Assembly (NCBI GenBank): GCA_001797465.1
Contig: MGPQ01000011.1
Coordinates: 1 to 55,853, forward strand
Origin: Deltaproteobacteria bacterium GWB2_55_19
GTDB lineage: Bacteria; Desulfobacterota; GWC2-55-46
Direction: 5' to 3'
DNA: 55,853 nt
The notes beneath the pieces are model-generated. The model was not told where the DNA came from. It saw only the letters and a program-made list of their open reading frames with translations, and searched no databases. Every line of letters starts with the position of its first letter. The first letter of the stretch is position 1. A program made the position numbers and the translations under genes. This document shows positions 23,645-46,686 of this stretch, piece after piece.

Positions 23645-26370
23645 GGCCTCAACAGCCCCTGGCTTTCGCTACGGGCCTCGTCGAGCCACTGGTGGAAGTG
23701 GTATTTGACGATCTGTCTGAAGAACTCGCCTTCCGAGTTGAGCATCTCGTAGATGACCATTGGGATGTTCGCTTCGAACCCCTTGAATATGACCTCGCCG
23801 CTTTTGAAGAAGGCCTCCGTCCGTTCCGAGTTTTTTATGGTCTCGGTCGAGAGCCAGAATTCGAGCGGCGTGACCGGGAAGAAGAAGGCGTCGCGGATGG
23901 CGCTGTCGAGGTCTTTGGGATCGACGGTCTTTTTGAAGAAGAACTTGGTGCCTTTCTTCTCGCGCATGTAGGCTTCGAGCGCGTTTACGCTTATCGCCTG
24001 CCCCTTGTTATAGATGTCGGTCGTCGATGAGATAATCCTTAAGTTTGTAAAGGCCTCTCCGGCGATTATCTTTTTGAGGTCGATGAAGAACTCGTTAGCC
24101 ATTATCTGGGTCATGGCCTGCGCCGAGGCCGGTTTGCCCGAGCCTATGAGTTTTTCGAAGGCGCTGTCGAGCTCAGGCGGCATCTTTATGGAAAATACCC
24201 GGTCTATGTAGATGTCGAACGGGTATTTTACCTTCTGCCTGCGCTTGAGCCTCTCGTTTTCGAGGAGGAGCTCGAGCTTGGCCCTCACCATCGGGTTCCT
24301 GAAGGTCCCGCGTGCCGCTTCGTTTATCTTCTCCCCTATGGCGACCTTTACCGGGCCCGAGAACTCGCCCCTTGGCTCTATGACGGTCGTCTCGGCCTTT
24401 GCGCCGTAGGCGATGTAGAGCCCGGCCTCGAGCTCGCCTTTTATCGCCGTCTCTATCTCTTCCCTGTACGTGTTCTCGAGCCTGTGCTCCTCCTCGCCGA
24501 GGGAGACGAGCTTTAATTCCACGCCCGGCTCCTTCCTCTCGAGCGCCCTCTGCAGTTCGGTCCGCCTGAGTTTCAGCGCGTCCCTTTTCTCCTCAAAGGA
24601 CTTGTGGACCCCGTCGAGGATCTCTTCGTTCCTCATGGGCGGGAGTTTCTGGGCGAGCTGGTCCCTGTACCGTCTTATTATCTGCTGTATGTCGCGCGCG
24701 AGCGCTATGAGGTAGCTTACGCCGCCGGAGAATATAGCCGCGTCGCCGGGGAGGTTCGTGAGGGTTATGCCGCGCTCGTCGCTTGAGACCCCTATGCCAG
24801 CGCTGTACTGGGCCGCGGCTGAGAGGATAGGCTTGTAGAAGTGCTCATTCATGAACTCGGCCATCGCTATCTCCTTTACCTTGAGCGTCTTCCTGGTAAA
24901 GTCCTTCATGTCGATGAAGAGCTGGCCTTCCTCTTCGGTCGCGAGAGTTTTTAGAATGACCCTGTCGTCAACGGAGAACCTGTATAGGCGTCCCCGGTTG
25001 TATTCCTCTACGAGCATGTTCTGGTTGAACTCGCCCCTCCTGTCGGCGAGGGAGGCGCGCATCGGCCCCTCGAAGCCCTCAATGTGGTCGTCGAAGGCCG
25101 AGGCGCAGTACCCCTCGATCAGCGGGAGTATCGACTCGAGCTCCTTTTTGGAGCTTTTAAGGAGGCCTCCGAGGACCGATTTTTTCGAGGAGAGGAAGGA
25201 CTGAAGCGAGTTTATGCACTCCACCCGCCTGCCGTCCTTTGTGAACCTTTTTTTGATCTCTTCGAGCGCCCTGGCGAGGTTCTGGGATGCCTTCTGGTCG
25301 TTAAGGAGGTTCCTTATGAGGCGGTCCTCGTTAAGCACGTCGTAGAGGACCGACTGGACATCCGAGCCGGGTATGTCGAATTCCATGAGGTAGGCGAGTG
25401 CTTCTTCCCTGAACCTCGCCGCGTCGAGGATGGACCTTAAGCCTTCCATTATGCCGGACTTATGCCTGATCTCCTCGGAAAGGGAGTTGATGAGGTCCAA
25501 TGAGGCGGCCTTGCCGGAGACTGGTTGCGCGTGTCCGGATAAGAGCTCTATGACCTCGGCGTTAATCCCGTACGGGTTGAGCGTGTTCGCGAAGAGGGAC
25601 TGGGGTATGGAGAGGAACGACCTCGGCGTAAGCGCGGAGTTCAAGAGCGCGTCGTTAAGCGGCGTATACGCCGCCGCGCCCTGGTCCTTAAGCTTGTCGA
25701 GCGTATCCCTTACGGCGGTCCTTAAAGAGGTAAAGAGCGCCATGCCCACGGCGAGGTCTATCTTTTCGTAGGTGAGCCCCTTTATCCTGAAGCTCTTTAC
25801 CCTCTCTTTTTTCTTCTTTACGGTATTTACAGCAGAGAGAAGGGCGAGGTACGCGGTCCGCTCCTCTCCGCCGTGGCGCGTCTCGTCCTTAAGCGCCTTC
25901 TCCACGAGTACAGAGGCCCATTTTACGAATTTTTTTCCGTGGCCGTCGCCTGTCAGCCATCCGGCGAGCAGGGCGCTGTCAAGGTAAGGCGTCGATGAGA
26001 GTATACCGGCGGCGAGCCTCTTCTCCAGCGAGTCCGACATGAAGAGGTCTGTCCTGAAGGTCTTGTCCTTTATCTGGGGTACGGTGAAGAGGATGGGCTG
26101 GGGGCCTTCCCTGCCTTCTATGGAAGGGGGCGAATACCTCTTGACCATGAGGGCGACGAGCGACTGGACGGCGTCATCGATGAACGCCTCGTCGTCGGCG
26201 CCCATGTGGAACGGGACCTTAAGCTCCGCGATATTTTCGCCGTGCCTGAAACGGAGCGACTTGGGCTCTATGGTCCAGGGCCTGCCGTTCGCTACGTCGA
26301 GACCGAGTTTTAAGAGCGCATCGTGAATCGAGAGGCGCTCCGCGGGATATCCTGAAGGCATCTTGTCCAT
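23641..26370 (-). CDS. Large protein with a split class III nucleotidyl cyclase-like domain
   Basis: A 909-residue soluble protein with no signal peptide. Residues 1-480 are mainly helical and not recognised. Residues about 483-690 resemble an adenylate/guanylate cyclase domain: FIDMKDFT (Asp487) fits the first metal-binding strand, NLPGDAAIFSG (Asp543) the second, and AIGEKINEAAR (Asn683, Arg687) the NxxxR transition-state motif. A charged coiled coil of about 70 residues (571-640) interrupts the domain before the GLYIAYGAKAE strand. The usual adenine-selecting positions are not conserved. The C-terminal 200 residues are unrecognised. The cyclase assignment is my inference from motif order; it may be catalytic, act on another nucleotide, or be a degenerate sensor. 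It overlaps larE by 4 bases on the opposite strand. Confidence 0.7.
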   Translation of the reverse strand: MDKMPSGYPAERLSIHDALLKLGLDVANGRPWTIEPKSLRFRHGENIAELKVPFHMGADDEAFIDDAVQSLVALMVKRYSPPSIEGREGPQPILFTVPQIKDKTFRTDLFMSDSLEKRLAAGILSSTPYLDSALLAGWLTGDGHGKKFVKWASVLVEKALKDETRHGGEERTAYLALLSAVNTVKKKKERVKSFRIKGLTYEKIDLAVGMALFTSLRTAVRDTLDKLKDQGAAAYTPLNDALLNSALTPRSFLSIPQSLFANTLNPYGINAEVIELLSGHAQPVSGKAASLDLINSLSEEIRHKSGIMEGLRSILDAARFREEALAYLMEFDIPGSDVQSVLYDVLNEDRLIRNLLNDQKASQNLARALEEIKKRFTKDGRRVECINSLQSFLSSKKSVLGGLLKSSKKELESILPLIEGYCASAFDDHIEGFEGPMRASLADRRGEFNQNMLVEEYNRGRLYRFSVDDRVILKTLATEEEGQLFIDMKDFTRKTLKVKEIAMAEFMNEHFYKPILSAAAQYSAGIGVSSDERGITLTNLPGDAAIFSGGVSYLIALARDIQQIIRRYRDQLAQKLPPMRNEEILDGVHKSFEEKRDALKLRRTELQRALERKEPGVELKLVSLGEEEHRLENTYREEIETAIKGELEAGLYIAYGAKAETTVIEPRGEFSGPVKVAIGEKINEAARGTFRNPMVRAKLELLLENERLKRRQKVKYPFDIYIDRVFSIKMPPELDSAFEKLIGSGKPASAQAMTQIMANEFFIDLKKIIAGEAFTNLRIISSTTDIYNKGQAISVNALEAYMREKKGTKFFFKKTVDPKDLDSAIRDAFFFPVTPLEFWLSTETIKNSERTEAFFKSGEVIFKGFEANIPMVIYEMLNSEGEFFRQIVKYHFHQWLDEARSESQGLLRP

Positions 26371-26549: not shown

Positions 26550-28451
26550 ATGCGGAACGTTTCTTCGGCAAACAATAGTCGCGGCCCCTCAGGGCAGAAG
26601 GAAAGAGACCTTTTCCATGTCGCGGTCCTCGTTGTTGTTGCCGTCATAGCGGCCGCGTATTCCAATACACTCTTTGCTCCGTTCCAGTTCGACGACCACC
26701 TATATGTCATAGACTACAACGCCGGCAAGGGGCTCGGAGCGTTCTGGCCGCCCTCCGGGACGCGGTATGTGACTTATTTGAGCTTCGCCCTCAACTACCG
26801 ATTCGGCGGGTTTTCTACCTTTGGCTATCACCTCGTAAACATCATCATACACGCGCTCAGTTCCATCGGCGTCTACCTGCTCGTTGCGTGGATAGCGAGG
26901 GCGCCGTTATTAAAGGGAAGGGTCGCAGGCGCGCCCTCTATTGCGCTCCTTTCAGCGGTCCTCTTCGCCGCGCACCCGGTGCATACTGAGGCTATCACAT
27001 ACATAAGCCAGAGGTTTGCTTCCCTTGCAACGCTCCTCTACGTCTATTCTATCGTCTTTTACCTCAAATGGCGTCTCTCCGGCGCCTCGCGCCAGAGGTG
27101 GTTTTTTTATCTATTCTCGATAGCGCTGGCCGTCCTCGCGCAGAAGACAAAGGAGATTGCGTTCACGCTCCCGTTCCTGCTTGTATTCCTCGAGTTCACG
27201 CTCTTTGAAAGGGGCGGCTACGGCGGAAGAATAGCGCGCCTCGTTCCATTCGCGCTCTGCCTCCTCATAATACCGCTATCCCTCTATGGCCACGACCTCA
27301 TCCTCTGGGGCGGGGAGAGCGTAGGGGACGAGGTGAGGGGCCTTCAGTTAAAAGACCTCCACTCCATATCGAGGCACGACTACCTCTTGACCCAGTTCAG
27401 GGTCATGGCCACGTACTTGAGGCTCATCGTCCTGCCCATAGGACAGAACCTCGACTACGACTACCCGATGTACCGGTCGATAGCCGAGCCAGCCGTATTC
27501 CTTTCCCTGGTTTTAGTCGCGTCCGTATTCTCCCTGGGCGTATGGCTCTTCGCGCGCTCTTATCAAAAGGGGGGAGGGTACTGCGCCCTCGCGGGCCTTG
27601 GCGTCATCTGGTTCTTTGTGACTATTTCAATTGAGTCATCGATAATACCGATAAAGGACCTGATATTCGAGCACAGGCTCTATCTGCCGGGCGCGGGCGC
27701 CGCGTTATTTACGGCGACTCTCATATTTTTCCTGAAGGATAGAATCGTCCCCGGTCTAAAGACCGCCGCCTTCACCGCCATCGCCGTCGTCATGTTTGCC
27801 GTCCCTCTCGGCGTAGCCACTTACATGAGGAATTCGCTCTGGACCGACGAGGCCGCGATATTCGAGGACGCGGCGCAAAAATCCCCTGGCAAGGAGCGGG
27901 TCCACTATAACCTCGCGTGGGCGTACCAGAGGAAAGGGGAGAATGACAAGGCGATAGTCCACTATAAGGAGACTATACGGCTTAAGCCCGACAAGGACAA
28001 GGCCCACTATAACCTCGCGGTCTTATACCAGACGACAGGGGACAACGCCGGGGCGCTCAATCACTTCAAGGAGGCAGTACGTATCTCGCCTAATAACGCC
28101 GTCGCCCGCTATAACATGGCCGCCATTTACCACGACATGAGCGACGACATCAAGGCCATAGAGAGCTACTCGGAGGCGTTACGGATAAACCCCGGATACG
28201 TGGACGCGCACTATAATATCGCGTGGCTCTATAAGGAGGCCGGGGACTTGAAAAGGGCTGAGGCGCACCTGAGCGCCGTCCTTGCCCTCGCCCCGGAAAG
28301 CGCGGACGCCCACTATAACCTCGGGCTCATCTATTCTAAGGCGGGGCGTTTCGACCTCGCGGGCAAGGAGCTCAAGGCCGCGCTCGAGATAAACCCCGGC
28401 TACAATGACGCGGCTTTGGAGCTCGCGCGGCTCACGAGGGGGGTGAGGTAG
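26550..28451 (+). CDS. TMTC-like membrane glycosyltransferase with TPR repeats (1)
   Basis: A 633-residue inner-membrane protein. After a short charged N-terminus come about ten to eleven membrane helices (30-425), then five to six TPRs (about 445-630, with recurring HYNLA...Y motifs). The first loop has the acidic motif FQFDDHLYV, then the TRYVTYLSFAL and YHLVNIIIHALS regions, HPVHTEAITYIS, and EHRLYLPGAG, in the same order as eukaryotic TMTC O-mannosyltransferases (GT-C fold, CAZy GT105). Such enzymes move a sugar from a lipid-phosphate donor to protein Ser/Thr; the TPRs would bind the acceptor. It is first of five related genes plus a prenyl-phosphate glycosyltransferase. Catalysis is inferred. 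Confidence 0.82.
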   Translation: MRNVSSANNSRGPSGQKERDLFHVAVLVVVAVIAAAYSNTLFAPFQFDDHLYVIDYNAGKGLGAFWPPSGTRYVTYLSFALNYRFGGFSTFGYHLVNIIIHALSSIGVYLLVAWIARAPLLKGRVAGAPSIALLSAVLFAAHPVHTEAITYISQRFASLATLLYVYSIVFYLKWRLSGASRQRWFFYLFSIALAVLAQKTKEIAFTLPFLLVFLEFTLFERGGYGGRIARLVPFALCLLIIPLSLYGHDLILWGGESVGDEVRGLQLKDLHSISRHDYLLTQFRVMATYLRLIVLPIGQNLDYDYPMYRSIAEPAVFLSLVLVASVFSLGVWLFARSYQKGGGYCALAGLGVIWFFVTISIESSIIPIKDLIFEHRLYLPGAGAALFTATLIFFLKDRIVPGLKTAAFTAIAVVMFAVPLGVATYMRNSLWTDEAAIFEDAAQKSPGKERVHYNLAWAYQRKGENDKAIVHYKETIRLKPDKDKAHYNLAVLYQTTGDNAGALNHFKEAVRISPNNAVARYNMAAIYHDMSDDIKAIESYSEALRINPGYVDAHYNIAWLYKEAGDLKRAEAHLSAVLALAPESADAHYNLGLIYSKAGRFDLAGKELKAALEINPGYNDAALELARLTRGVR

Positions 28452-28453
28452 GC

Positions 28454-29971
28454 TTGAGAAGGTTTTATAGCATCATACCCGCCATTGTCATAGTAGCGGC
28501 GGCGTTCGCGGTCTACGCGCAGACGCTTCAAAACGGCTTTGTCTACGACGACAACCACATAATACTCGCTAACGAGTGGATAAGGGACCTTGCGCGCATC
28601 CCGGATATACTCACGTCTTCGACCCTTTTCGCTGACCCCGCGCGCTCCGCCTCGAACACGTACAGGCCGCTACTCTTCCTCGTATTCATGGCCGAGCAAT
28701 TCGTATTCGGGCTTGAGTCCCCCTGGGGTTTTCACCTCGTGAATGTGTCGCTACTTGCGCTTAACGGTCTCCTCCTGTACGGCATAACCTCCATGTTGTT
28801 TGCGAAGGATGAGGAGGAACATGCCTCCGGTTACGGGTTTTTGCCTCCGCTCCTCGCTTCTCTTGTCTTTACGCTCCATACGATAAATTCAGAGGTAGCC
28901 AACTGGGCATCCGCCCAGGCGGAGCTCCTTTTTACGGCCCTGTTCCTATCCGCCTTCTGGATATATACGAAAGGCCCACAGGAGGCGGTTGGAAGGGCAA
29001 CCGTTTCCGCGCTTGTCTATTTCTTAGCCCTGCTTGTCAAGGAGACTGCGATAATACTACCTGCGCTCCTTTTCGCCTTCGACCTCATCCATGACGGCAG
29101 AAGGATATTCAAGAGGGCGTTCAATTACGCGATATTCTTCGGCGCGGCTGTCCTGTATATGGCCATAAGGACATACGCCGTCGGCGCGCTTGTGCATGAA
29201 AAGAAGATAGCCTTCAGCGCCTTCGAGGCCTTTATAAACATATTCCCGCTTATCACCCATTATCTCTCGAAGCTCGTCTATCCGTCCGGGCTCAGTATCA
29301 TCTATGAATTTTACCCGGCGCGCTCGTTCGGCGACCCGAGGGTCATAGCTGGGATGATTATCGTAACGGCCTTTGTCCTTGCGCTGATTTTCGTCAGGCA
29401 CAGGCCCATAAGGCTCGCCATCGTCTGGACCGCCCTGCCGCTCCTCCCGGTCTTATACATCCCGGCGTTATCGACCTCAGCGACGGCAGACAGGTACCTC
29501 TATCTTCCGACGGCGGGCTTCGCCATAATCATCGCGTCTGTCGCCCTCCGGGCCCTTAAACGCCCCGGAGCGATAAGGCTTGTCGCTGTCTCAGCGTGTT
29601 CTCTCGCGCTCGTCTCCTCATACGCCGTTGCCTCCTTCAAAAGAAGCGTTGTCTGGAGGGAGGACTATACCCTCTGGGCGGACGCGCTGGAAAAGTCCCC
29701 GAGGAGCGCGCACGTCCACTATAACTTCGCGTGGTCGAGCCTGGCGAAGGGGGACGCGAGGTCCGCGATAGAGCATTACAGAGAGTCTATCCGCCTCTCT
29801 CCGGAAGGCGCGGCGGACGCCCACTACAACCTCGGGCTCATATATACGGACCAGTACATCTTCGACGAGGCGGTCTCCGAGTTCCTGGCGGCGCTTGAAT
29901 TAAAGCCCGACTTTGCCATGGCCGCAGAGGCGCTCGCGAGGGCAAGGGCGCTTAAGGCGATGGTGGAGTGA
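28454..29971 (+). CDS. TMTC-like membrane glycosyltransferase with TPR repeats (2)
   Basis: A 505-residue paralogue of the preceding gene: about ten to eleven helices, then only two to three TPRs (about 410-490). The first loop carries NGFVYDDNHIILAN with the putative catalytic acidic pair, then NTYRPLLFLVFM, GFHLVNVSLLA, LLVKETAIILPA and ATADRYLYLPTAGF. Translation begins at TTG 28454, 2 bases after the stop of gene 1, with a GGGGGTGAGG site upstream. It is close in sequence to gene 3, including near-identical TPR codons, indicating tandem duplication. Function as for gene 1, inferred. Confidence 0.82.
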   Translation: MRRFYSIIPAIVIVAAAFAVYAQTLQNGFVYDDNHIILANEWIRDLARIPDILTSSTLFADPARSASNTYRPLLFLVFMAEQFVFGLESPWGFHLVNVSLLALNGLLLYGITSMLFAKDEEEHASGYGFLPPLLASLVFTLHTINSEVANWASAQAELLFTALFLSAFWIYTKGPQEAVGRATVSALVYFLALLVKETAIILPALLFAFDLIHDGRRIFKRAFNYAIFFGAAVLYMAIRTYAVGALVHEKKIAFSAFEAFINIFPLITHYLSKLVYPSGLSIIYEFYPARSFGDPRVIAGMIIVTAFVLALIFVRHRPIRLAIVWTALPLLPVLYIPALSTSATADRYLYLPTAGFAIIIASVALRALKRPGAIRLVAVSACSLALVSSYAVASFKRSVVWREDYTLWADALEKSPRSAHVHYNFAWSSLAKGDARSAIEHYRESIRLSPEGAADAHYNLGLIYTDQYIFDEAVSEFLAALELKPDFAMAAEALARARALKAMVE

Positions 29972-31611
29972 TGGGGAGGCTGAACGCATCGGTGTTGAGA
30001 TGGGTACTCGCGGCGCTCTCAGCCGTGATAATCGTAGCGGCCTTTTCCCCGGCGCTTCAAAACGGGTTTGTCTACGACGACCACACGCAGGTATTGAAGA
30101 ACCCGTGGATAAAGGACTTCCGTTACATCCCCGAGATACTCTCATCATCGCTCTGGTCGTACTCAGGCTATACCTCCAACACGTACAGGCCGATGCTCCA
30201 CCTGTCGTTCATGGCTTCATACTTCGCATTCGGCCTAAAACCCTGGGGATGGCACCTCGTGAACGTCTCCCTTCACGCGGTAAACGGGGTACTCGTATTC
30301 GGAGTGGCGTCGCGCGTGCTTAAGCCCGCCGACGAAGGGGCCTCTGTCAGCGGAAGGGCTGAGGGGCGGTCTTTACTCGCGCCGTTCTTCGCGGCGCTTT
30401 TCTTTGCCCTCCACCCGGTTAACGCCGAGCCGGTGGCGTGGGTCTCTGCTGTAACGGAGCTTACATTCGCCTTCTTCCTGCTGTTTTCATTTTACCTCTA
30501 CATGAGGTTCAGGGAGGGCGGAAGGCCGGGTCTTTATATAATTTCGCTCGCCTCTTTTGTGCCTGCCCTTTTGAGCAAGGAGACGGCCATTGTGTTGCCG
30601 GCCCTTGTCATTGCGTATGATTTATCCGGCGGCAAGCGGCGAGGGGGATGGAAATATTGGCCGGGCTTTTTAGCTGTGGCCGCGCCTTATTTGATAGTGA
30701 GGACGTTAGCCGTCGGCGGCGTCATCCAGCACAGGCAGGCGCCGTTGACAGGTGTTGAGCTCGTGATAAATGTATTTCCGCTCGTCTTTCAATACGCCTG
30801 GAAGCTCGTCTACCCGACGGGCTTATCAGCGCTCTACGAGCTCCACGCGATAAAGTCGCTTGACCTGAACGCCGTGGCGGGCATCGCGGTGACAGCGGCC
30901 TTTGTCGCGGCGCTCTTTGCGTCCCGGAGGAAGAGGGCCCTTCTCGCGGGCCTCCTTATGCTGGGGTTGCCGCTCCTGCCTGTATTGTATATCCCCGCGT
31001 TATCCACGTCCGCCTCCGCCGACAGGTATATGTACCTGCCGACCGCCGGGTTCGGCATTATCGTCGGCTGTATAGTTGAGGCTGTCTTCAGGGGGAAGCT
31101 AAAGGCCGCTTTTTCCGTAGCTGTTATCGCCATCATGATAGCGGTCACTGCCGCGTACGCGTTTGCTTCCTTTGAAAGGGTTGCCGTATGGAGGGACGAC
31201 CTCGCCCTCTGGTCGGATACCGTCAGGAAGTCGCCGGGGAGCAGGTACGCGCATTATAACCTCGCGCTCGCGTACCAGGGCAGGGGCGATCTTGATAACG
31301 CAATAGTAGAGCTCAAGGCGGCGATAAAGGCCGCCCCTGACTACGAGGACGCCCACTATAATCTCGCGTGGTGCTACCAGTCAAAAGGTGATAGCATTAA
31401 CGCGGCCATCCATTACAAGGAGGTCCTTCGGCTCGACCCCGGCTCAGCGGACGCGCACTACAACCTCGGGCTCATATACAGGAATGAGACGTTTTTTGAT
31501 GAGGCGGCTTTCGAGTTCAGGGAGGCGCTCCGGCTGAAACCCGACTATGCCGAGGCGGCAGGGGCACTTGCGGAGATTCCCGGGGCCATTGGAGGAGTGA
31601 CTGCGCGATGA
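29971..31611 (+). CDS. TMTC-like membrane glycosyltransferase with TPR repeats (3)
   Basis: A 546-residue member of the same family with about eleven helices and three to four TPRs (about 420-535). Motifs: NGFVYDDHTQVLKNPW, NTYRPMLHLSFM, PWGWHLVNVSLHAVN, HPVNAEPVAWVS, LLSKETAIVLPAL, SASADRYMYLPTAGF and the stalk VWRDDLALWSD. The ATG at 29971 shares its A with the TGA stop of gene 2, so translation is coupled; a GTG one codon earlier is possible. It ends with a 4-base overlap with the GT2 gene. Confidence 0.83.
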   Translation: MGRLNASVLRWVLAALSAVIIVAAFSPALQNGFVYDDHTQVLKNPWIKDFRYIPEILSSSLWSYSGYTSNTYRPMLHLSFMASYFAFGLKPWGWHLVNVSLHAVNGVLVFGVASRVLKPADEGASVSGRAEGRSLLAPFFAALFFALHPVNAEPVAWVSAVTELTFAFFLLFSFYLYMRFREGGRPGLYIISLASFVPALLSKETAIVLPALVIAYDLSGGKRRGGWKYWPGFLAVAAPYLIVRTLAVGGVIQHRQAPLTGVELVINVFPLVFQYAWKLVYPTGLSALYELHAIKSLDLNAVAGIAVTAAFVAALFASRRKRALLAGLLMLGLPLLPVLYIPALSTSASADRYMYLPTAGFGIIVGCIVEAVFRGKLKAAFSVAVIAIMIAVTAAYAFASFERVAVWRDDLALWSDTVRKSPGSRYAHYNLALAYQGRGDLDNAIVELKAAIKAAPDYEDAHYNLAWCYQSKGDSINAAIHYKEVLRLDPGSADAHYNLGLIYRNETFFDEAAFEFREALRLKPDYAEAAGALAEIPGAIGGVTAR

Positions 31612-32354
31612 AGAACGGCAAGGTGCTCTCCGTCATAATGCCTTCGTACAACGAGGGCGCGCACATCCGGAAGAACGTCGTTGAAACATGGGAGACGCTC
31701 GAGAAGGTCTGGGGCGATTCGTTCGAGATAATAGTAGTCGACGACGGGAGCTCTGACAATACCCACGCGGAGGCCCTGGCCGCTTCAAATATGCGCTCGC
31801 GCGTAAAGGTCGTCCATTACGCCGATAACCGCGGCAAGGGCGGGGCGCTTAAGGAGGGATTCAGGAACGCGGCGGGAGACTATATTGCCTTCTTGGACGC
31901 GGACCTCGATCTCCACCCCTCACAGATACCGGCGCTATTCAAGGTGATGGAGGAAAGCGGGGCCCAGGTAGTGATAGGGTCCAAGCACCACCCCTCTTCC
32001 GCCCTCAAGTACCCCGCCCACCGGAGGATAATAAGCAGGGTATACGCGACAGCGTTGAAGCTCCTCTTCAAGCTCCCCGTCCGGGACACGCAGACTGGGA
32101 TCAAGATATTCAAGGCCGAGGTGCTTAAAAGGATATTCCCGAAGGTCGTCTGCGCGAGGTACGCCTACGACCTCGAGATACTCGCAAACGCGCACCGCCT
32201 CGGCTACACGATAGCCGAGACGCCGATAGTCCTTAACTTCCAGAGGGTCGCAAAATGGGGGAGGATAAGGACGAGAGACCTCTACCTCGCGGGAATGGAC
32301 ACGCTCGCCATATTTTACAGGATGTACTTTACTCGGCACTACAAGGGGATCTGA
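31608..32354 (+). CDS. Prenyl-phosphate glycosyltransferase, GT2 family (DPM1/ALG5-like)
   Basis: A 248-residue GT-A enzyme of family GT2. Motifs: VIMPSYNEG at the N-terminus, VVDDGSSDNT, NRGKGGALKEGF, LDADLD (DxD), VIGSKHH and DTQTGIKIF, the last being typical of dolichyl-phosphate mannose or glucose synthases. No C-terminal membrane domain, so it resembles DPM1 more than GtrB. It would make a polyprenyl-phosphate sugar at the cytoplasmic face. Its ATG at 31608 overlaps the stop of TMTC-like gene 3 with GGAGGAG at 31591, and gene 4 follows by 6 bases. This context suggests it supplies the donor for the TMTC-like transferases. Which sugar is used is unknown. Confidence 0.87.
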   Translation: MKNGKVLSVIMPSYNEGAHIRKNVVETWETLEKVWGDSFEIIVVDDGSSDNTHAEALAASNMRSRVKVVHYADNRGKGGALKEGFRNAAGDYIAFLDADLDLHPSQIPALFKVMEESGAQVVIGSKHHPSSALKYPAHRRIISRVYATALKLLFKLPVRDTQTGIKIFKAEVLKRIFPKVVCARYAYDLEILANAHRLGYTIAETPIVLNFQRVAKWGRIRTRDLYLAGMDTLAIFYRMYFTRHYKGI

Positions 32355-32360
32355 CGCGCC

Positions 32361-34109
32361 ATGCGCTCTGAAAGGGGGCTTAGACTGTTCTTTATCGCGA
32401 TAGCCGCGCTCGTCTCATTCGCGGTCTACGCGAACACCCTTTCCAACGGGTTCGTCTACGACGACCACCTGCAGATAGAGAAGAACGTCTGGCTCGTGTC
32501 CTTCTCCAGCATACCCGATATACTCACAAGCCATGTCTACGGTTTCAAGCAGGAGATCAAGGTAACGGGCTCGTACAGGCCGCTATTCATGCTCGTCTAT
32601 CTCTTCGAATACGCCGCATTCGGAATGACACCCTGGGGCTGGCACCTTGTGAACGTCATCCTCCACGCCGTTTCCGTTATAATGGTATTTCTCATAGCCG
32701 ATACCCTGACAAGAGGACGCCGCGCAGAGGCCGGGGCGCCGCAGGTAAGGCTCATAGCCCCGTTCATAGCCTCTCTCCTCTTCGCCGTTCACCCGGCGCA
32801 CAACGAGCCGGTGGCGTGGGTCGCCTGCGTCCCGGACCTCTCGTACACGGCGCTCTACCTAGTTGCGTTATATATTTCCATAAGGTCTACGCGCGCCTTA
32901 GCCGTTGTACCGGCAATAATTTACCTCCTAGCCCTTCTTTTTAAAGAGACGGCTGTTACGCTCCCCCTTGCGGTATTCGCCTGCGACAGGCTCCTCGCCA
33001 AAGAAAAGACGGACAGCCTCAGGCGTTATCTCCCATTCGTTGCGGCGCTCGCGTTATACCTGGCCTTCCGGCGCTTGTTCCTCGGCGGCCTCGCTAGTGC
33101 GCCCTCGATGCACCCGTACATGGATGCAGGCATGGCAGTCATAAACGCCGTCATATTCTTTGCCGGATATCTCCGCGTGCTCGTCTTCCCTTATTGGTTC
33201 GAGCCCTTCAGTGTATTCGACCCTGCTGTATCGATGGCGGATGCGCGGTTCATATCCGGCGCGCTCGTCGTATCAGCCGTCATCGCGGCGGTCATATACT
33301 GCCGTAAAAGGCACCCGCTGGCGGCGTTCTCGCTCATCTTTTTTTCGATCGCCATATTCCCTGCGCTCTATATACCGGGCCTCAGTCAGAACCCGTTCGC
33401 CGAGAGACAGGCCTACCTGCCCTCTGCCGGGCTCGCGATAGGGGCCGCGGCAGTTTCGTCCCGAATGATAGGGGAGAGGGTTTCGCGCGCAGTCCTTGCA
33501 CTCGCCCTGCTCCTCGTGATTACATCCGTCTTATCATATGTCGCTATAACGCGTAACTTCGCCTGGAAAGACGACCTCTCCATCTGGACCGCCTCAGCGG
33601 TCTCTCAGGCAGGAAATTATCTCGCCTCGCACAATATCGCGGTTGAGCGCGTTATAGCAGGGGAAGCCGGCTCCGCCATATTCGATTACAAGGAATCGAT
33701 ACGGATGAACATGGAGAGAGGGTTCCCGGATGAAAAGACCCTTGTGCTGTCGAACCTGTATCTCGGAAAGATATACGCGGGCAAGGGCCTTCAGAGGGAG
33801 GCTGTTGCAAGGTTTAAGGAGGCCGTACGGCTCAAACCTGACCTCCCGGAGGCCCGTTTAGACCTCGCGCGCGCGCTGGAGGCGTCCGGCGACCTCGCGG
33901 GGGCGGTTATCGAATACAACCGGGCGCTCGATCTGCCATGGAGGAGGGAAGACCTCAAGGCCATATACAGGGACCTCGGAAGGGCGCTTGCGGGACTCGG
34001 CATGTACGAGGACGCAAAGATAAGCCTCGAGGAGGCGCTCAAGCTCGACCCCGACGACGCGGATACGGCAAGGGACCTCGCGCTCGCAAGGAGGTTGTCC
34101 GGGAGATGA
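32361..34109 (+). CDS. TMTC-like membrane glycosyltransferase with TPR repeats (4)
   Basis: A 582-residue paralogue. The membrane part (about 10-405) has SNGFVYDDHLQIEKN, TGSYRPLFMLVYL, PWGWHLVNVILHAV, HPAHNEPVAWVA, LLFKETAVTLPLA and FAERQAYLPSAGL. The last retains the AER..YLPS motif shared with eukaryotic TMTC but with Gln in place of the usual Tyr/Val region. TPRs at about 455-575 are spaced more irregularly than in genes 1-3. It overlaps gene 5 by 4 bases (ATGA). Confidence 0.82.
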   Translation: MRSERGLRLFFIAIAALVSFAVYANTLSNGFVYDDHLQIEKNVWLVSFSSIPDILTSHVYGFKQEIKVTGSYRPLFMLVYLFEYAAFGMTPWGWHLVNVILHAVSVIMVFLIADTLTRGRRAEAGAPQVRLIAPFIASLLFAVHPAHNEPVAWVACVPDLSYTALYLVALYISIRSTRALAVVPAIIYLLALLFKETAVTLPLAVFACDRLLAKEKTDSLRRYLPFVAALALYLAFRRLFLGGLASAPSMHPYMDAGMAVINAVIFFAGYLRVLVFPYWFEPFSVFDPAVSMADARFISGALVVSAVIAAVIYCRKRHPLAAFSLIFFSIAIFPALYIPGLSQNPFAERQAYLPSAGLAIGAAAVSSRMIGERVSRAVLALALLLVITSVLSYVAITRNFAWKDDLSIWTASAVSQAGNYLASHNIAVERVIAGEAGSAIFDYKESIRMNMERGFPDEKTLVLSNLYLGKIYAGKGLQREAVARFKEAVRLKPDLPEARLDLARALEASGDLAGAVIEYNRALDLPWRREDLKAIYRDLGRALAGLGMYEDAKISLEEALKLDPDDADTARDLALARRLSGR

Positions 34110-35833
34110 ACGGAAGGATCAAGACGCTCCTTTTCGCGCTCGCCCTCGTAGCGGCCTCTTTTGCCGTTTACCACGCTACACTCTGGAACTCCTTTGTCTA
34201 CGACGACGCGGAGCAGGTATTGAGGAACCGCTGGATCACGGATTCGGGGTATTTAAAGGAGATATTCACCTCCCACACGTTCGCCTTCGCGGAATCCAGT
34301 TACCAGGCTATCTCATACAGGCCTCTCTTCCTGGCCTTCTATATGGCCGAGTACGCCATCTTCGGCCTTGAGCCGTGGGGGTGGCACTTTGTGAACATAA
34401 TCCTCCACTCGGCGAACGCCATAATCGCGTTCCTTCTCATAAGGCGGCTCATGGGAGAAGAGGAGAGGGCGTCCTTTGCCGCCTTCGCCGGCGCTCTCGT
34501 ATTCACGGTCCTTCCGGCGGGGAGCGAGGTGGTCTCGTGGGTCGGGTGCGTCCCTGAGCTCTTATATACCTTTCTCTGTCTCGTTTCTTTTTATGTATAC
34601 GCGGGGGCCGGCAAGGGGGTCGTAAGGGTCGTGGCATCGGCCCTTATATACTTCATCGCTCCCTTCACAAAGGAGACCGCCATCATCTTCCCGGTTTTTT
34701 TGTATGTCTATGATTCGCTCCGCGATGGTTGGGTCCCGGTCCTCTCACGCGTAAAAAGGTACATCCCCTTTGCGGTGGCGGCCTTTGCCTACATCGGCAT
34801 AAAATCCGCGCTACTCGGCCACATAGCCGCGCCCGAACGGATACACACGGACCTTAAGCCAGCGGACTTCCTCGCAAGCGCCCCGTATCTTTTTGTTGAG
34901 TACCTGAGGGCGCTCGTATTCCCCGAGGGCGTCTACCCCCTTCAGCCCTTTGCGCCGATACCCTTCTTCGGCGCGGAGTTCATAGTCTCGGCCCTGGTCA
35001 TCGTTGCGCTCTCAGCCTTCTGTTTTTACTTCCGAAAAAGATTCGACAGGCTCGCCTTCCTCGCGCTCGCCATTTTAGTCGTGCCGCTCCTGCCCGCGCT
35101 CTACGCCCCGGCCATAAGCAGGACCCCTTTTGCCGAGAGATACCTGTATCTCCCGTCCGTCGGGTTAGCGCTCCTTATAGCGCTCGTCTTCCAGAGGGGC
35201 CTGCTCTATTCGGCTGTCTGGCGGAAGGCGCTTATTATCGCGCTCGCTGTCGTCTCGGCCTTTTACTCCGTCTGGTCGTACAAAAAGTCCCTCAACTGGG
35301 GGGACGACAGGGCCCTGTGGGAATCATCGCTCAAGGGGGGGCCGGGAAACCATCTCGCTCTGCATTCGCTGGGGTACATAGCCCTCAAGGAGGGCAGGGA
35401 CATTGAGGCGATGGAGTTGCTCTCAAAGGCGCTCAAATTCAACCTTGAGGGGAGCCACCCTGACCCGACGATGGTCCTCCTCACGCGGAAGATACTCGCG
35501 AATGCGTACCAGAGGGGAGGCTTGAGTGACCTTGCGGCGCTCGAGTACGAGGAGGTTTTAAGGTACGAGCCCGAGGACCCTGTCGCAGGCTTCAACCTCG
35601 GGACGATATACGAGGGGATGGGGCGCCCCGGCGACGCGATAGATCTCTATGAAAAGGCGCTTTACTTCGCGAAAAGGCCGGAGCTTCTGAGGGAGATTAT
35701 CTTGAGGCTCGGAGAAGGGTATGCGAAGGCCGGGCGCGCAACTGAGGCGCGTGCTTTATATGAGAGGGGCGCAGAGGCGTTCCCAGGAGACCCCGAGTTT
35801 CAGCAAAGGGCCCGCGTCCTCCCAGCGCGTTAG
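34106..35833 (+). CDS. TMTC-like membrane glycosyltransferase with TPR repeats (5)
   Basis: A 575-residue family member, most similar to gene 4. Motifs: NSFVYDDAEQVLRNRW, ISYRPLFLAFYM, PWGWHFVNIILHSAN, FTKETAIIFPVFL and FAERYLYLPSVGL, then three to four TPRs (about 425-560). The Asp pair of the first loop is kept. The start at 34106 lies in an ATGA overlap with gene 4; a longer reading frame back to 33938 lies inside gene 4 and is not credible. It ends the operon: a new promoter lies 30 bases downstream. Confidence 0.82.
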   Translation: MNGRIKTLLFALALVAASFAVYHATLWNSFVYDDAEQVLRNRWITDSGYLKEIFTSHTFAFAESSYQAISYRPLFLAFYMAEYAIFGLEPWGWHFVNIILHSANAIIAFLLIRRLMGEEERASFAAFAGALVFTVLPAGSEVVSWVGCVPELLYTFLCLVSFYVYAGAGKGVVRVVASALIYFIAPFTKETAIIFPVFLYVYDSLRDGWVPVLSRVKRYIPFAVAAFAYIGIKSALLGHIAAPERIHTDLKPADFLASAPYLFVEYLRALVFPEGVYPLQPFAPIPFFGAEFIVSALVIVALSAFCFYFRKRFDRLAFLALAILVVPLLPALYAPAISRTPFAERYLYLPSVGLALLIALVFQRGLLYSAVWRKALIIALAVVSAFYSVWSYKKSLNWGDDRALWESSLKGGPGNHLALHSLGYIALKEGRDIEAMELLSKALKFNLEGSHPDPTMVLLTRKILANAYQRGGLSDLAALEYEEVLRYEPEDPVAGFNLGTIYEGMGRPGDAIDLYEKALYFAKRPELLREIILRLGEGYAKAGRATEARALYERGAEAFPGDPEFQQRARVLPAR

Positions 35834-35862
35834 GGCCGCGCGTTAGTGGACAAACCGCTTTC

Positions 35863-35892
35863 TTGTTGTAATCCGACGTATTATGATATAAT
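35863..35892 (+). promoter_or_regulatory. Sigma70 promoter of the HEAT protein gene
   Basis: TTGTTG (35863-35868), an 18-base spacer, and a perfect TATAAT (35887-35892). It lies about 80 bases before the HEAT-repeat gene start. Confidence 0.65.
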
Positions 35893-35973
35893 CAGCGTGC
35901 CGGGACGGGGTTGGGGCGGGCGCGAGGCTCAAAAGCGCTGAATTGTGAAAAAACACGTCGAGGGAATATCTTC

Positions 35974-36795
35974 ATGGCTTCTGAAAGAACAGACTCTAAT
36001 CCGATGAGCTCAACCCGCGAGAAGCTGGCCCACATGTTCTCCAAGGTCATGGCAGGGACGGTCACGAGGGAAGAGGGGACGATGCTCCTCAACCACCTCG
36101 TAAAGGAGGACCATGCAGGTACGGTAAAGGAGCTCGCCTATCTTATCGACTACCCGCCCCCGGGCGTCTTTCCCAAGACCATACTCCACACCATAGCGCT
36201 TTCGAGGAACAAGGCCTTCTACAACATAATGGTAGGGAGCCTCGAGCATAAGAACGAGGAAGTCTCGATACTCGCGGCCCAGGAGCTCGCCAGGCTGAAG
36301 ACCTCGGACGCGAAGGTCGTGCTCGTCGAACACCTGAACAGCGAGGTATACCATGTGAGGAAGGCTTCAGCGATAGCGCTCGTAGATGGGTTGACCGACG
36401 GGATTGATATCGTCAGAAGGCACCTCATGGGCCAGGCAGAGCCCTTCTACAGGTCTACTTCCGCGCTGGCGCTCCTTACAGGCGGCAGGAAGGGGATAGA
36501 TGCGCTCCTCGCCATTCTCAATTCCGGCGAGCCGGGCCCCGTGTCCACAGCCGCTGAGGCGGTAATGGGGGCGTCTTCCAGGCTTGACGCGGGAGACATA
36601 CCAAAGGTCTTCGAGGCGTTGATGCTCGCCGGCGACAGGAAGGACTCAAGGACGATAATAGAGCTTCTAAAGGTGGCGACGGCGCTCGGAGGCAGGGCCA
36701 GGGGGTTCGATGGCTATGTGCAGGCCTTTGTCGACTACCCGTTCGACGCGGTGAGGAACGAAGCCGCCGACGCGCTCCGTGTGATCAGGGCCTGA
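35974..36795 (+). CDS. HEAT-repeat protein
   Basis: A 273-residue, all-helical protein with HEAT/PBS-lyase-type repeats of about 30 residues from about residue 70 onward (SILAAQELARLKTSDAK, then VRKASAIALVDG, and so on). No signal peptide or membrane helix. Start ATG 35974 follows GAGGGA at about 35960; an in-frame upstream ATG at 35911 has no comparable site and lies close to the promoter. It is convergent with the truncated TPR gene, overlapping it by 11 bases. It is probably a binding scaffold; function unknown. Confidence 0.78.
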   Translation: MASERTDSNPMSSTREKLAHMFSKVMAGTVTREEGTMLLNHLVKEDHAGTVKELAYLIDYPPPGVFPKTILHTIALSRNKAFYNIMVGSLEHKNEEVSILAAQELARLKTSDAKVVLVEHLNSEVYHVRKASAIALVDGLTDGIDIVRRHLMGQAEPFYRSTSALALLTGGRKGIDALLAILNSGEPGPVSTAAEAVMGASSRLDAGDIPKVFEALMLAGDRKDSRTIIELLKVATALGGRARGFDGYVQAFVDYPFDAVRNEAADALRVIRA

Positions 36796-37609
36796 ACCTT
36801 GTCCGTCTCAGGCCTTCAACTGCGTCGATGAGCCCCGGGTTCAGCCTCAGCGCGGTTTCGTATTCTTCTCCGGCGCGTCCATGCTCGCCAGACATCTCAA
36901 ACGCCTTCCCGAGCCCGTTATGGGCCTCGGCGGAGCCGGGGGCAAGCTCGACGGCACGGAAAAGGTTCTCGATGGCTGAGGCCGGGTCTTTTTTAATGAT
37001 GAACGTCTCCCCGATCAGCCTGTGGGCGTCCGCGTAATCCGGCGCGTACCTTAACGCCGTTCTGTATTCCCCGATCGCCTCATCCAGCATGCCCGTATCC
37101 CTGTAAAGATAGCCGAGGTTAATGCGCGTCTTCACGTGCGAGGGTTTTATGCCGAGGGCTGTCCTGTATTCCTTAAGCGCCTCCGGGAACCTGCCCTTCG
37201 TGTAATAGGCGTATCCGAGGTTGTTGCGGGCCTCGACGATGTCGGGTTTGAGCGCAAGGGCGATCTCGTACTTTTCTATGGCCTCGTCTATCCTTCCCCA
37301 TGTGTGGAATATCGCCCCGATGTTGAAGTACGCCTTCCCGTAATACGGGTATATCTCGATGGCCAACAAGTTCTCTTCGAGCGCGCGGTCGAGGTCGCCG
37401 TTTCCGGCAAGCACCGTCGCGTAGTTGTAATGCGGGCGGGCCTTTGACGGGGATTTGCCGACGACGTCCGCCCAGAGCGTCTCCGGGCTCTTCCAGACCG
37501 AGTTCCTGTTGAACGATATGAAGGCGAGCGCGATGATGGCCGCCGCAAGCGCGACTGATGGGAGGATGGATTGGCCGGTCCGGGCTATTGGGCGGCCGGC
37601 TACGCTCAT
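36785..37609 (-). CDS. Membrane-anchored TPR protein, apparent C-terminal part of a TMTC-like protein
   Basis: A 274-residue protein with one membrane helix (about 14-33), then NSVWKSPETLWADVVGKSP, a close match to the helix-TPR junction of the neighbouring TMTC-like proteins (their VWRDDLALW...KSP), and six TPRs (about 58-265). The catalytic membrane domain is missing. It may be a remnant of a sixth TMTC-like gene or a purposely shortened version. Its ATG shares a base with the stop of the beta-barrel gene (TAATG), so it is translated with that gene, which argues against a dead remnant. Confidence 0.78.
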   Translation of the reverse strand: MSVAGRPIARTGQSILPSVALAAAIIALAFISFNRNSVWKSPETLWADVVGKSPSKARPHYNYATVLAGNGDLDRALEENLLAIEIYPYYGKAYFNIGAIFHTWGRIDEAIEKYEIALALKPDIVEARNNLGYAYYTKGRFPEALKEYRTALGIKPSHVKTRINLGYLYRDTGMLDEAIGEYRTALRYAPDYADAHRLIGETFIIKKDPASAIENLFRAVELAPGSAEAHNGLGKAFEMSGEHGRAGEEYETALRLNPGLIDAVEGLRRTRFRP

Positions 37610-39618
37610 TACCAGACCCTCATGAAGACCCTTGTGGCCCTGAACAGTATCGAGGCCTCCGCAGTCTCGGTATTGCTCTCGACCGTGTAGGTGTTCTTCT
37701 GCTCGAGACCGAGGAACCAGGCCCTCAGGGGGTAGGTGAGGGAGTTGGTGAACGAAGTAGTGTCCTTGTCCGACTCAGAGCTCAGCTTCTGTGTGACCGA
37801 GAAGGTCGCCTGCCAGTTCAGGTTGTTGTAGAACTTCCTCACGTACTGGGTGAGGAACTGCAGGTCCCTTATAGTGTCGGAGCCGCCCTCATATTCGGTG
37901 TCCATGAGGGTGTAGTAGAGCGAGAGGCTGAGCGTACCCTTGAAAAGGGGCCTGTTGTGCCCGACGGAGGCCCCGACGGTGTCGTTCTGTCCCGACCCGC
38001 TAACCCCGCTGAATGTGTTCGAGCGCTCAGCGTAACCCATGAGGTTGAAGTTCTTGAAGTAGGCGGAAGTGGCGTCGAGCCTGTACGTCTCGTTCTTGCT
38101 CCCGGTTATATCGATATAGGACTCGGTTACGGATTTGTTGTAGGAGGCGTTAATGAGGACGTACTGTTTCCAGAGCTTGTTGAAGGCGTTGGCGTTGTAG
38201 CTATTTGAGTGGGAGAATATGTCCTGGCCGGCGAGCGTGTAGGTGTCGGACTGCGAGAAGCCTGCGCCGAAGCCGACGTACTTGTTTACGTCTATGTTGT
38301 CGAGCGACCCGTTGAAGCTGTGCTCGAGGCCCTGTCCGGTACTGAAGCCCTCGGCCTTGTCCTCTATGTAGCCGAGCCCCCAGCCTGCCCCTAACACGGC
38401 CCGTGTGAATATCTTCGAGTAGCTCAGCCTGGAGGTCGCTCTGAGCGTCGTCCTGTCGCCGGTCGTCGCGGACGTATCCGAGGCCGTGTCGGTCGTCGTT
38501 GTGTCAGTGGTCGTGTCGGTCGTGTCCGTCGTGTCCGTGGTTGAGGCGGCCGAGGTGTTGGCGTTTGTCTTGTAATCTGAATACGACACCGATTCCGAGG
38601 CCATGAGGTTGTCCGTGAGCCTTAAGTTCACGCCGCCGCTCACGCCTAATGACTCGGTTTCGGAATCCGAGGTCGAAGAGTTGTTTTTTGCGGTGCCGAG
38701 GCTGACGGAGAGGCTCGCGTCCGCCCTCTTCGAGATCTTGTAGCCCATGTCGCCGGAGTAGGTGGTCCCTATCTGCTCGTCGCCGTCGGTTGAGTTCCTG
38801 TAGTAGGAGTACCTGTGGTTCTGGTTGAAGTCCTCGCTCGGCTTGGAGTTGAGGAGGAGGCTTAAGCCTTCGAGGCTCGTATTGGCGTCCGAGTCGGTCT
38901 CGGTAGAGGCGGAACGGCTGAGCGTGGCGCCTGCGTATAGCTGGGTGCTCTTGGATATCCTTGTGAGGTTGTTGGCGTTAAAGGTGGCGACCGACGATTC
39001 CGTGCCGTCGTTCGAGCCGCTCGTCGAGTACGACATCGTCGCCTCGTTCTTGGTCGGGCCGAGGTCCTTCTTCAATATGACCTTGTAGTTGCCCGTTTCG
39101 GTATCGGTGCTTTCCGACTCCGAGAGCGTCCTCTCGGCGTAGATAGAGGTCTGCGGCAGGGTCCGGAGTTTCAAAAACCAGTTGAGGCCGTAGGTAGTCT
39201 TTATCGTTTCCGACGTGGTAGCCTCGTCCACGGTCCTCTGCCCGTAGAGGGAGAGAGGTATGGCGGATTTCGGGAGCGCTGTCGTACGGAAGTAATAGCC
39301 GGTAGAGCGGGTCGTGACGTCGCTGGCATCCGACGAATAGTCGTTGTTCGTGAAGGACACCCCAGCGTCGTAGATGATGAGCCTCCTCGACAGGAAGTTG
39401 CCCTTCAAGTCCAGTGTGTATGTCTGCTGGAAGCGGGCCGTTTCCGACGCTATTCCGTTCTGCTCGGTCGCGGACTCCTCGAACTCGAACAAGACCTGTC
39501 CAACGAGGGACTTGTAGATGTACGGGTCCTCCTCGACCGCGTAGCCTCTTTGAGGTGCGAAGAGGAGAGCGGCGACAACGGCTGTTGCGGCAACGAGCGC
39601 CAGTTTGTTGCGGAGCAT
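37609..39618 (-). CDS. Predicted outer-membrane beta-barrel protein
   Basis: A 669-residue exported protein: signal peptide about 1-27 (ending RGYA), followed by many alternating polar/hydrophobic strands rich in Ser, Thr, Tyr and Asn, and a C-terminal Trp (VFMRVW), as expected for a large outer-membrane barrel. No CxxC or heme motif as in MtrB/PioB. Residues 355-387 are a Thr/Asp/Ser-rich tract (TTDTTDTTDTT...), probably a surface or periplasmic loop. It has GGAAAGGA before ATG 39618 and is co-translated with the truncated TMTC-like gene. It could be an export channel, an adhesin or a glycoprotein; no family was recognised. Confidence 0.75.
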   Translation of the reverse strand: MLRNKLALVAATAVVAALLFAPQRGYAVEEDPYIYKSLVGQVLFEFEESATEQNGIASETARFQQTYTLDLKGNFLSRRLIIYDAGVSFTNNDYSSDASDVTTRSTGYYFRTTALPKSAIPLSLYGQRTVDEATTSETIKTTYGLNWFLKLRTLPQTSIYAERTLSESESTDTETGNYKVILKKDLGPTKNEATMSYSTSGSNDGTESSVATFNANNLTRISKSTQLYAGATLSRSASTETDSDANTSLEGLSLLLNSKPSEDFNQNHRYSYYRNSTDGDEQIGTTYSGDMGYKISKRADASLSVSLGTAKNNSSTSDSETESLGVSGGVNLRLTDNLMASESVSYSDYKTNANTSAASTTDTTDTTDTTTDTTTTDTASDTSATTGDRTTLRATSRLSYSKIFTRAVLGAGWGLGYIEDKAEGFSTGQGLEHSFNGSLDNIDVNKYVGFGAGFSQSDTYTLAGQDIFSHSNSYNANAFNKLWKQYVLINASYNKSVTESYIDITGSKNETYRLDATSAYFKNFNLMGYAERSNTFSGVSGSGQNDTVGASVGHNRPLFKGTLSLSLYYTLMDTEYEGGSDTIRDLQFLTQYVRKFYNNLNWQATFSVTQKLSSESDKDTTSFTNSLTYPLRAWFLGLEQKNTYTVESNTETAEASILFRATRVFMRVW

Positions 39619-39811: not shown

Positions 39812-40600
39812 TTACCAGGCGCACCTGAACCCCACGTCGTCGTAACGTCTTTCGGGAGGCGCGGCGTTCCTGAAAGGCGCCCTGACGTAGACCTGGAGCG
39901 AGTAGTGGCCCATGCCGCCCCATCCGCCGCCGCGGACCACCTTGAGCTTTTCCCCGTAATCAGGGTCCTTGAACTCGTTATTCGGGTACGGCTTGTACCA
40001 GTCCGACGTCCACTCCTGCGCATTGCCGGACATGTCATAGGCGCCGTAGGGGCTTACCCCGTCCTTGAGCGTGCCGACCGGGAGGGTGCCGCCGTACTCG
40101 CCTATGGTGTTGACCTTCTTTATGTCGAAGTCGTTGCCCCAGGGGAAAACCCTCCCGTCCGCGCCTCTGGCGGCCTTCTCCCACTCCGCCTCCGACGGGA
40201 GCCTCCGCCCCTTCCACTTGCAGTACTCATCGGCGTCCGCCCATGTCACGAATACCACGGGATGGTCGGAGAGGTCCGCCGGATACGACCCTGCGGACCA
40301 CTGCGGCGGAGCGGGGCGCCTGGCGGCGTCTACGAACTCCTTGTACTGTCTGTTCGTCACCTCGGTCCTGTCGATATGGAACGTATCGAGCTTTATCTTC
40401 CTCTCGGGCCTCTCGTTCGCGTACCAGGGGCGCCTGTCGCCGTACTGCAAGGCCTTGGCCTCCCTGTCCACCTCGTTACTGCCGATCGTGAACTCGCCCC
40501 CCGGGACCTTCACCATGTCCTCGGGCGCTGATTGGCAACCAACGAGAGCGAGAGAGAGTGACGTAAGGATCAAATAACCGGCATTCTTTACGGAGCGCAT
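39812..40600 (-). CDS. FGE-sulfatase fold lipoprotein without catalytic cysteines
   Basis: A 262-residue lipoprotein: signal peptide with lipobox LVGC (Cys22), then a formylglycine-generating-enzyme/SUMF1 fold. Family motifs: VPGGEFTIGSNE, IDRTEVTNRQYKEFV, HPVVFVTWADADEYCKW, RLPSEAEWEKAARG, PWGN, YDMSGNAQEWTSDW and GFRCAW. The region matching the FGE active-site Cys pair reads RGGGWGGMGHYSLQVYVR, without Cys, so it is probably a binding or structural member rather than an FGly enzyme. GGGAGG lies 7 bases before ATG 40600. The previous gene on this strand encodes a membrane spermidine-synthase-like protein; a related domain fused to hemes is at 42275. Confidence 0.88.
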   Translation of the reverse strand: MRSVKNAGYLILTSLSLALVGCQSAPEDMVKVPGGEFTIGSNEVDREAKALQYGDRRPWYANERPERKIKLDTFHIDRTEVTNRQYKEFVDAARRPAPPQWSAGSYPADLSDHPVVFVTWADADEYCKWKGRRLPSEAEWEKAARGADGRVFPWGNDFDIKKVNTIGEYGGTLPVGTLKDGVSPYGAYDMSGNAQEWTSDWYKPYPNNEFKDPDYGEKLKVVRGGGWGGMGHYSLQVYVRAPFRNAAPPERRYDDVGFRCAW

Positions 40601-40690
40601 AAAAAACCTCCCTGTATTTAAAGGCCTGCCCTGCGGGGGCCGGCCCGAAGTGTGAAGTATCAACCGCCTTCAGCGGCTTTTTCAGGCCTT

Positions 40691-42259: not shown

Positions 42260-42274
42260 CTCATCGCGGGCCTT

Positions 42275-43267: not shown

Positions 43268-43295
43268 TATTAGCTCGTTTTTTTTGTTTGCGGTC

Positions 43296-43745: not shown

Positions 43746-43796
43746 AAATGGAATATCCTTGTCTTCACATGCCGATACTGCTGGCCCTTAAGGCCG

Positions 43797-45165: not shown

Positions 45166-45203
45166 AAAAAAAGAAGGGCCGGTTTCCCGGCCCTTCTTTT
45201 TTT
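45166..45203 (-). terminator. Terminator of the tetraheme cytochrome gene
   Basis: 17-bp arms (AAAAAAAGAAGGGCCGG and complement) with loop TTTC. On the minus strand the hairpin ends in a run of T. The symmetric A/T flanks allow function on both strands. Confidence 0.93.
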
Positions 45204-45233
45204 ATCCGATTCGGTCTTGCGACCGAGCGGTTT

Positions 45234-46307: not shown

Positions 46308-46313
46308 ACCACC

Positions 46314-46665: not shown

Positions 46666-46686
46666 GGATAATACCCGGTGAGCCGC

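Follow-up and report, generated by a model that had tools for sequence, protein, structure and literature searches.

The 55,853-nucleotide stretch of DNA analysed here (the window) spans positions 1 to 55,853 of contig MGPQ01000011.1 of Deltaproteobacteria bacterium GWB2_55_19 (assembly GCA_001797465.1), a bacterium whose relatives are of groundwater origin. Positions 26550-35833 of its plus strand hold five tandem membrane-protein genes with a glycosyltransferase family 2 (GT2) gene embedded among them. The membrane proteins resemble the TMTC protein O-mannosyltransferases of animals, in which a glycosyltransferase module of the GT-C fold is followed by a tail of tetratricopeptide repeats (TPRs). 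This array probably constitutes a periplasmic glycosylation operon, in which a GT2 donor synthase would supply five GT-C transferases that act on acceptors recruited by the TPRs. Its genes are as follows.

26550..28451, plus strand: gene 1, 633 amino acids, TMTC-like GT-C protein of a divergent lineage with at least five TPRs (AlphaFold model, structure match, own tree clade)
28454..29971, plus strand: gene 2, 505 amino acids, TMTC-like GT-C protein with a short TPR tail (motifs, TPR matches)
29968..31611, plus strand: gene 3, 547 amino acids, TMTC-like GT-C protein, start at GTG 29968 or ATG 29971 (AlphaFold model, VIA structure alignment)
31608..32354, plus strand: GT2 gene, predicted polyprenyl-phosphate sugar synthase, DPM1/ALG5-like (PF00535, PDB relatives, linkage)
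32361..34109, plus strand: gene 4, 582 amino acids, TMTC-like GT-C protein (motifs, orthologue in the same position in genus members, clade)
34106..35833, plus strand: gene 5, 575 amino acids, TMTC-like GT-C protein (sequence, motifs, clade)

Spacing within the row ranges from -4 to +6 nucleotides. The gene 1 stop lies 2 nucleotides from the TTG start of gene 2, while genes 2 and 3, gene 3 and the GT2 gene, and genes 4 and 5 overlap, the last pair by an ATGA. For gene 5 the start was set at ATG 34106, which fits the homologues and this overlap; the open reading frame as listed begins at 33938 through mechanical extension. Five consecutive plus-strand membrane proteins with TPRs, and a GT2 gene between genes 3 and 4 in the same transcript-like row, had been described in the original prediction made from the sequence alone, and both are borne out by the coordinates and TPR matches. 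An ATGA overlap of the GT2 gene holds for the gene 3 stop but not for gene 4, from which it is separated by 6 nucleotides. The proposed extension of the transferase operon to 37609 is to be dropped, as it covers a HEAT-repeat gene and a minus-strand TPR gene, neither of which is a transferase. Scans for promoters and terminators gave numbers at about chance level.

In the window proteins Pfam and NCBIfam detect TPRs and nothing else, no GT-C model matching any of the five membrane proteins, so that by annotation these are 'TPR proteins'. TPR matches occur in 5/5 (Pfam), and the number of repeats differs among paralogues. A PDB sequence search with profiles of the transmembrane (TM) domains returned no related solved structure. 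We obtained an AlphaFold model of gene 3, built with 108 homologues, with a pLDDT (predicted local distance difference test) of 94.1 and a pTM (predicted template modelling score) of 0.93. VIA-align matched this model to GT-C enzymes at Z 18-22 across about 310-348 residues, among them STT3 (8agb, Z 21.7), Pmt1-Pmt2 (6p25, Z 20.3, 336 residues, 3.9 Å), PglB (3rce, Z 20.2), Pmt4 (9i5l, Z 19.9) and ArnT (5f15, Z 19.5); the TPRs (model residues 424-547) have matches of their own among TPR structures. The gene 1 model (pLDDT 91.2) gave Pmt4 at Z 20.7 (364 residues), Pmt1/2 at 20.5 and ArnT at 19.1. The Z values of both genes are well above the chance level that VIA quotes for helical bundles. From the helix limits and the distribution of charges (positive-inside rule), 11 TM helices are predicted with the N-terminus in and the C-terminus out, placing the DD, KE and [DE]R motifs and the C-terminal TPRs on the predicted outer, periplasmic side. 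The membrane domain is thus, as modelled for two lineages, of GT-C fold with an active site predicted to lie outside, in agreement with the periplasm-facing Asp pair originally proposed.

In the TMTC models of Eisenhaber et al. (PMC7801869) the motifs DD, KE and ERxxY sit around the donor and metal. DD follows TM1 in 5/5 array genes and KE is likewise present in 5/5, while YRP, KET and [DE]RxxY are present in genes 2-5. Gene 1 retains DD and KE, lacks YRP, and has KEIA in place of KET and EHRLY in place of [DE]RxxY; the motif plan once described as common to all five is accordingly confined to genes 2-5. The His-Lys of TMTC motif 2 (SHKSYRP) is absent from all five, the Arg of motif 3 (RxD) is absent with the acidic position kept in genes 2-5, and motif 5 (DW) is found in none of the window genes. 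The proposed geometry of the active site follows from motif positions. Among the 108 homologues, K204 and [DE]352 are conserved in 108/108, D37 in 107, E154 in 106, D38 and Y356 in 105 each and R353 in 97, with E205 near-invariant. The active-site residues hence rank among the most conserved positions, far beyond chance. Were the five proteins non-enzymatic TPR membrane scaffolds retaining a GT-C-like fold, the detection of TPRs alone by Pfam and NCBIfam and the lack of YRP in gene 1 would be accommodated; the conservation of the active site, the DD and KE retained even in gene 1, and the linkage to a GT2 make this very unlikely.

The Pfam model PF08409 (TMTC_DUF1736) matches none of the five genes at E 0.1 and nothing in the whole genome, and is weakly matched by 3/108 homologues. 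Within the same phylum, four bacterial proteins (L139, L140, L141 and L142) exceed the TMTC_DUF1736 cut-off, and the membrane-domain profile of the window family matches them at E 1e-67 to 1e-104 (small database). In three of the four the alignment spans TM1 to TM11, and in the fourth it begins at TM3. By these profile matches the family is homologous to TMTC yet outside Pfam's definition of it, supporting the likeness to TMTC noted earlier; the refuting condition of matches to generic TPR families only did not hold, even if TPRs are all that Pfam and NCBIfam by themselves detect. Because the DUF1736 signature and the TMTC His-Lys and DW motifs are lacking, we name the family TMTC-like rather than claim a demonstrated GT105 membership. 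PMT_2 is matched by 22/108 homologues (best E 2e-9) and by gene 3 at E 0.025 (15 bits, below the cut-off of 26). Proteins of the window do not reach the PF02366 or PF13231 cut-offs and have no MIR match, the features that define PMT (GT39), carrying TPRs instead.

With TMTC1-4 (CAZy GT105, animal dolichol-phosphate mannose (Dol-P-Man):protein O-mannosyltransferases) the array proteins share a GT-C module followed by a TPR tail on the lumenal or periplasmic side, the DD after TM1, KE and, in genes 2-5, YRP and ERxxY (as [DE]RxxY), and homology over the whole membrane domain by way of the bacterial DUF1736-positive proteins. They differ in having no detectable DUF1736, no His-Lys in the SHKSYRP motif and no DW, and in being bacterial, present in many copies and arranged in arrays with a GT2. 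PMT/POMT enzymes (GT39) have the GT-C fold (Z about 20) and a weak PMT_2 similarity in common with them, but carry a MIR domain where the array proteins, which stay under the Pfam cut-off, have TPRs.

The GT2 protein matches PF00535 (E 8e-36). Its closest PDB relative is the Dol-P-Man synthase of P. furiosus (E 1.3e-17), followed by ArnC and, lower down, GtrB; identity to E. coli ArnC is 35% over 113 amino acids. No TM helix was predicted in it, and no NCBIfam equivalog model scored above its cut-off. These relatives are consistent with the DPM1/ALG5 type assigned at the outset, and we regard the protein as a predicted polyprenyl-phosphate sugar synthase of the DPM1/ALG5/ArnC type. Mannose is a possible donor sugar, since a GDP-mannose enzyme is encoded in the genome, although nothing singles it out.

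Comparison of eight arrays of the family showed between two and five TMTC-like genes in each, and 7/8 contain a GT2; the array of genome G015 is without one. In 77 public loci from several phyla a GT2 adjoins a TMTC-like gene in 18/24 cases compared to 8.2 expected, which should be taken as an indication and not as an exact probability, since the loci were preselected for a TMTC-like gene and close relatives were counted. The gene-order patterns TTGT, TGT, GTT and TTTGT recur in these loci. In the cultured relative Geomonas diazotrophica Red69 (L029) the order is GT2-GT2-TMTC. Within the genome itself, 4/17 GT2 genes lie at most 2 kb from a TMTC-like gene where 0.46 would be expected (P 0.0009, or 0.008 without the window GT2). 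A GT2 present by chance, or working for another pathway, would be in keeping with the G015 array and with how common GT2 genes are (17 in the genome). We consider this very unlikely in view of the overlapping start, the 7/8 arrays, the adjacency in unrelated phyla and the occupation of one slot by two GT2 clades.

These two array clades are separate in a quick GT2 tree (SH-aLRT 100 each), with clade A found in G000-G004 and G006, and clade B in G005, G010 and the public loci L004, L005, L006, L011 and L035. The only solved relative of a clade B member is Dol-P-Man synthase. The flanking transferases meanwhile stay, keeping to a fixed order and belonging to three old lineages (g1, g2/3 and g4/5), which suggests that the donor synthase was replaced within the array slot; differential loss from an ancestor that carried both clades is a possible alternative. 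It is conceivable, and we offer it as speculation, that the arrays form a modular periplasmic protein-glycosylation system in which large TPR-aimed TMTC-like sets are combined with a donor synthase acting as an exchangeable cassette, the sugar differing by lineage. Another, very conserved GT2 clade was seen with TMTC-like genes in L126, L125, L129 and L110, with small zinc-ribbon proteins also present in L125, L126 and L129.

The original prediction held five copies in tandem to be unusual. The five are, on the contrary, part of 17 (A2 profile) or 18 (A4 profile) TMTC-like copies in the 2.6-Mb genome. Among the genomes of the class, 43/45 carry 1-25 copies, the number among relatives reaching about 25 in a 2.4-Mb genome, and inheritance of rows of two to five is seen throughout the family. 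Tandem rows are hence normal in the class. Gene 1 forms its own clade in the tree and genes 4 and 5 share one with support of 100/100, while genes 2 and 3 are 45% identical in their TM domains. Where the contig is long enough, the eight arrays show a conserved order of ThiI-like gene, 290-aa protein, 909-aa gene, array, HEAT-repeat gene, TPR-only gene and barrel gene. Partial arrays consist of the GT2, g4 and g5 in G006, and of g2/3-type, GT2 and g5-type genes in G005. Gene order and sequence together indicate that the array is kept by descent. In another family, a genome with 23-25 copies has four tandem TMTC-like genes with no GT2 inside (L121; G023 contig C28).

For donor use, catalytic residue roles and a protein acceptor, we infer the following scheme. 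The GT2 would form a polyprenyl-phosphate sugar at the cytoplasmic face, which would be flipped by a flippase and taken from the periplasmic side by the five TMTC-like GT-C enzymes. The Asp pair that follows TM1 would activate the acceptor, and the donor phosphate would be held by the EL3 Lys-Glu and the EL5 Arg. TPR tails in the periplasm may recruit the acceptors, a role also proposed for the TPRs of human TMTCs (PMC11292533). Given the architecture common with TMTC, these acceptors are most likely proteins, envelope or secreted ones modified on Ser/Thr, and the paralogues would serve either different acceptors or successive sugars.

The latter option, with the paralogues working in sequence on one glycan and each adding one residue from a single donor, is possible but doubtful. 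Service of several transferases by one GT2 and the constant order of g1, g2/3 and g4/5, three lineages that are ancient and inherited together, would fit it, as would the GT2 PgfS of S. mutans with its membrane proteins PgfM1 and PgfM2, for which a stepwise action has been proposed (PMC5856776). Against it stand the partial arrays in G006 and G005, by which the full set is not obligate, and the TPR numbers that differ between paralogues.

Protein glycosylation by the array is weakened by several points. No GtrA-type flippase (PF04138) is present in the genome, the G015 array has no GT2, and the window proteins lack a PF08409 match, the His-Lys by which TMTC contacts mannose and the DW motif. 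No conserved Ser/Thr-rich acceptor was found near the array, nor any pilin or other obvious acceptor among the genes beside other TMTC copies. Experiments on any member of the bacterial family were not found in the open-access literature, and many characterised bacterial GT-C enzymes act on lipids or polysaccharides. The main alternative is that the acceptor of the GT-C enzymes is a lipid or polysaccharide (lipid A, O-antigen or capsule, as for ArnT and GtrC), the TPRs merely holding a biosynthetic complex together. The structural matches include ArnT, the NCBIfam models for ArnT and for a cell-surface glycopolymer protein find weak matches in a few homologues, and the 4-amino-4-deoxy-L-arabinose (Ara4N) and Gtr systems are built on the same pairing of GT2 and GT-C. 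ArnT and GtrC enzymes, however, have no TPR tails, whereas the relatives in whole architecture are the TMTCs, which act on proteins. A sequence comparison with E. coli ArnT alone is not significant (hhalign probability 1.5), and neither the array nor its conserved flanks contain recognisable lipopolysaccharide (LPS) genes. We thus consider this alternative unlikely and favour protein acceptors.

Like ArnC-ArnT and GtrB-GtrC, in which a GT2-made undecaprenyl-phosphate sugar is transferred by a GT-C enzyme in the periplasm, the array is predicted to divide these roles between its GT2 and membrane proteins; those systems differ in their LPS acceptor, dedicated flippase genes and absence of TPRs. 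By analogy, the operon that comes closest in function is S. mutans pgf, in which a GT2 and multi-TM proteins modify surface proteins in a proposed stepwise manner (PMC5856776). The pgf operon also includes an epimerase and is Gram-positive, and the likeness drawn here is one of operon plan. Full-length prokaryotic TMTC homologues were already noted in 2021 by Eisenhaber et al. (PMC7801869; AMJ42_05695 of Deltaproteobacteria bacterium DG_8), with a sugar-transferase domain followed by TPRs as here, but without mention of an operon, GT2 coupling, copy number or function. Beyond this passage we found no report in the open-access literature of a bacterial TMTC operon, GT2 coupling or family expansion. 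As the role of TMTC TPRs has so far only been inferred, small bacterial homologues with their own donor enzyme would offer a tractable system for TPR acceptor choice and catalytic residues. The abundance of the family (43/45 class genomes, up to 25 copies) points to a possible large hidden layer of envelope protein modification.

The array is flanked by a minus-strand 909-aa gene (23641-26370) on one side and a minus-strand outer-membrane-barrel cluster on the other. Two genes stand between array and cluster.

35911-36795: HEAT-repeat gene downstream of gene 5, starting about 80-140 nucleotides past the array
36785..37609, minus strand: TPR-only gene, truncated TMTC paralogue (N-terminal profile match, synteny)

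The TPR-only protein consists of a last TM helix, a W...LW...KSP linker and TPRs, and lacks the catalytic module. Its N-terminus matches a profile of TMTC TM11 and linker with 42 bits, as do its orthologues, and the gene is kept beside the array in relatives with a readable flank. It is a catalytically empty TMTC paralogue, and its role may be that of an adaptor. The 909-aa protein, conserved and divergently oriented from the array, has no Pfam or PDB match; by eye, a stretch LFIDMKDFT...GDAAIFSG resembles a nucleotide-cyclase core. The gene at 37609-39618 (minus strand) encodes an outer-membrane-barrel-like protein ending in ...FMRVW, with a Ser/Thr/Asp tract TTDTTDTTDTTTDTTTTDT. We do not claim its TTDTTDT as an acceptor, since the tract is restricted to close genus members and absent from other orthologues. 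Beyond it, the minus-strand genes at 39812-47727 encode two FGE-sulfatase-domain proteins flanking a spermidine-synthase-like protein, together with a PPIC isomerase, an exported protein in which the CXXCH motif occurs four times, and an NHL-repeat lipoprotein; the group resembles a cytochrome cluster of the outer membrane or the extracellular space.

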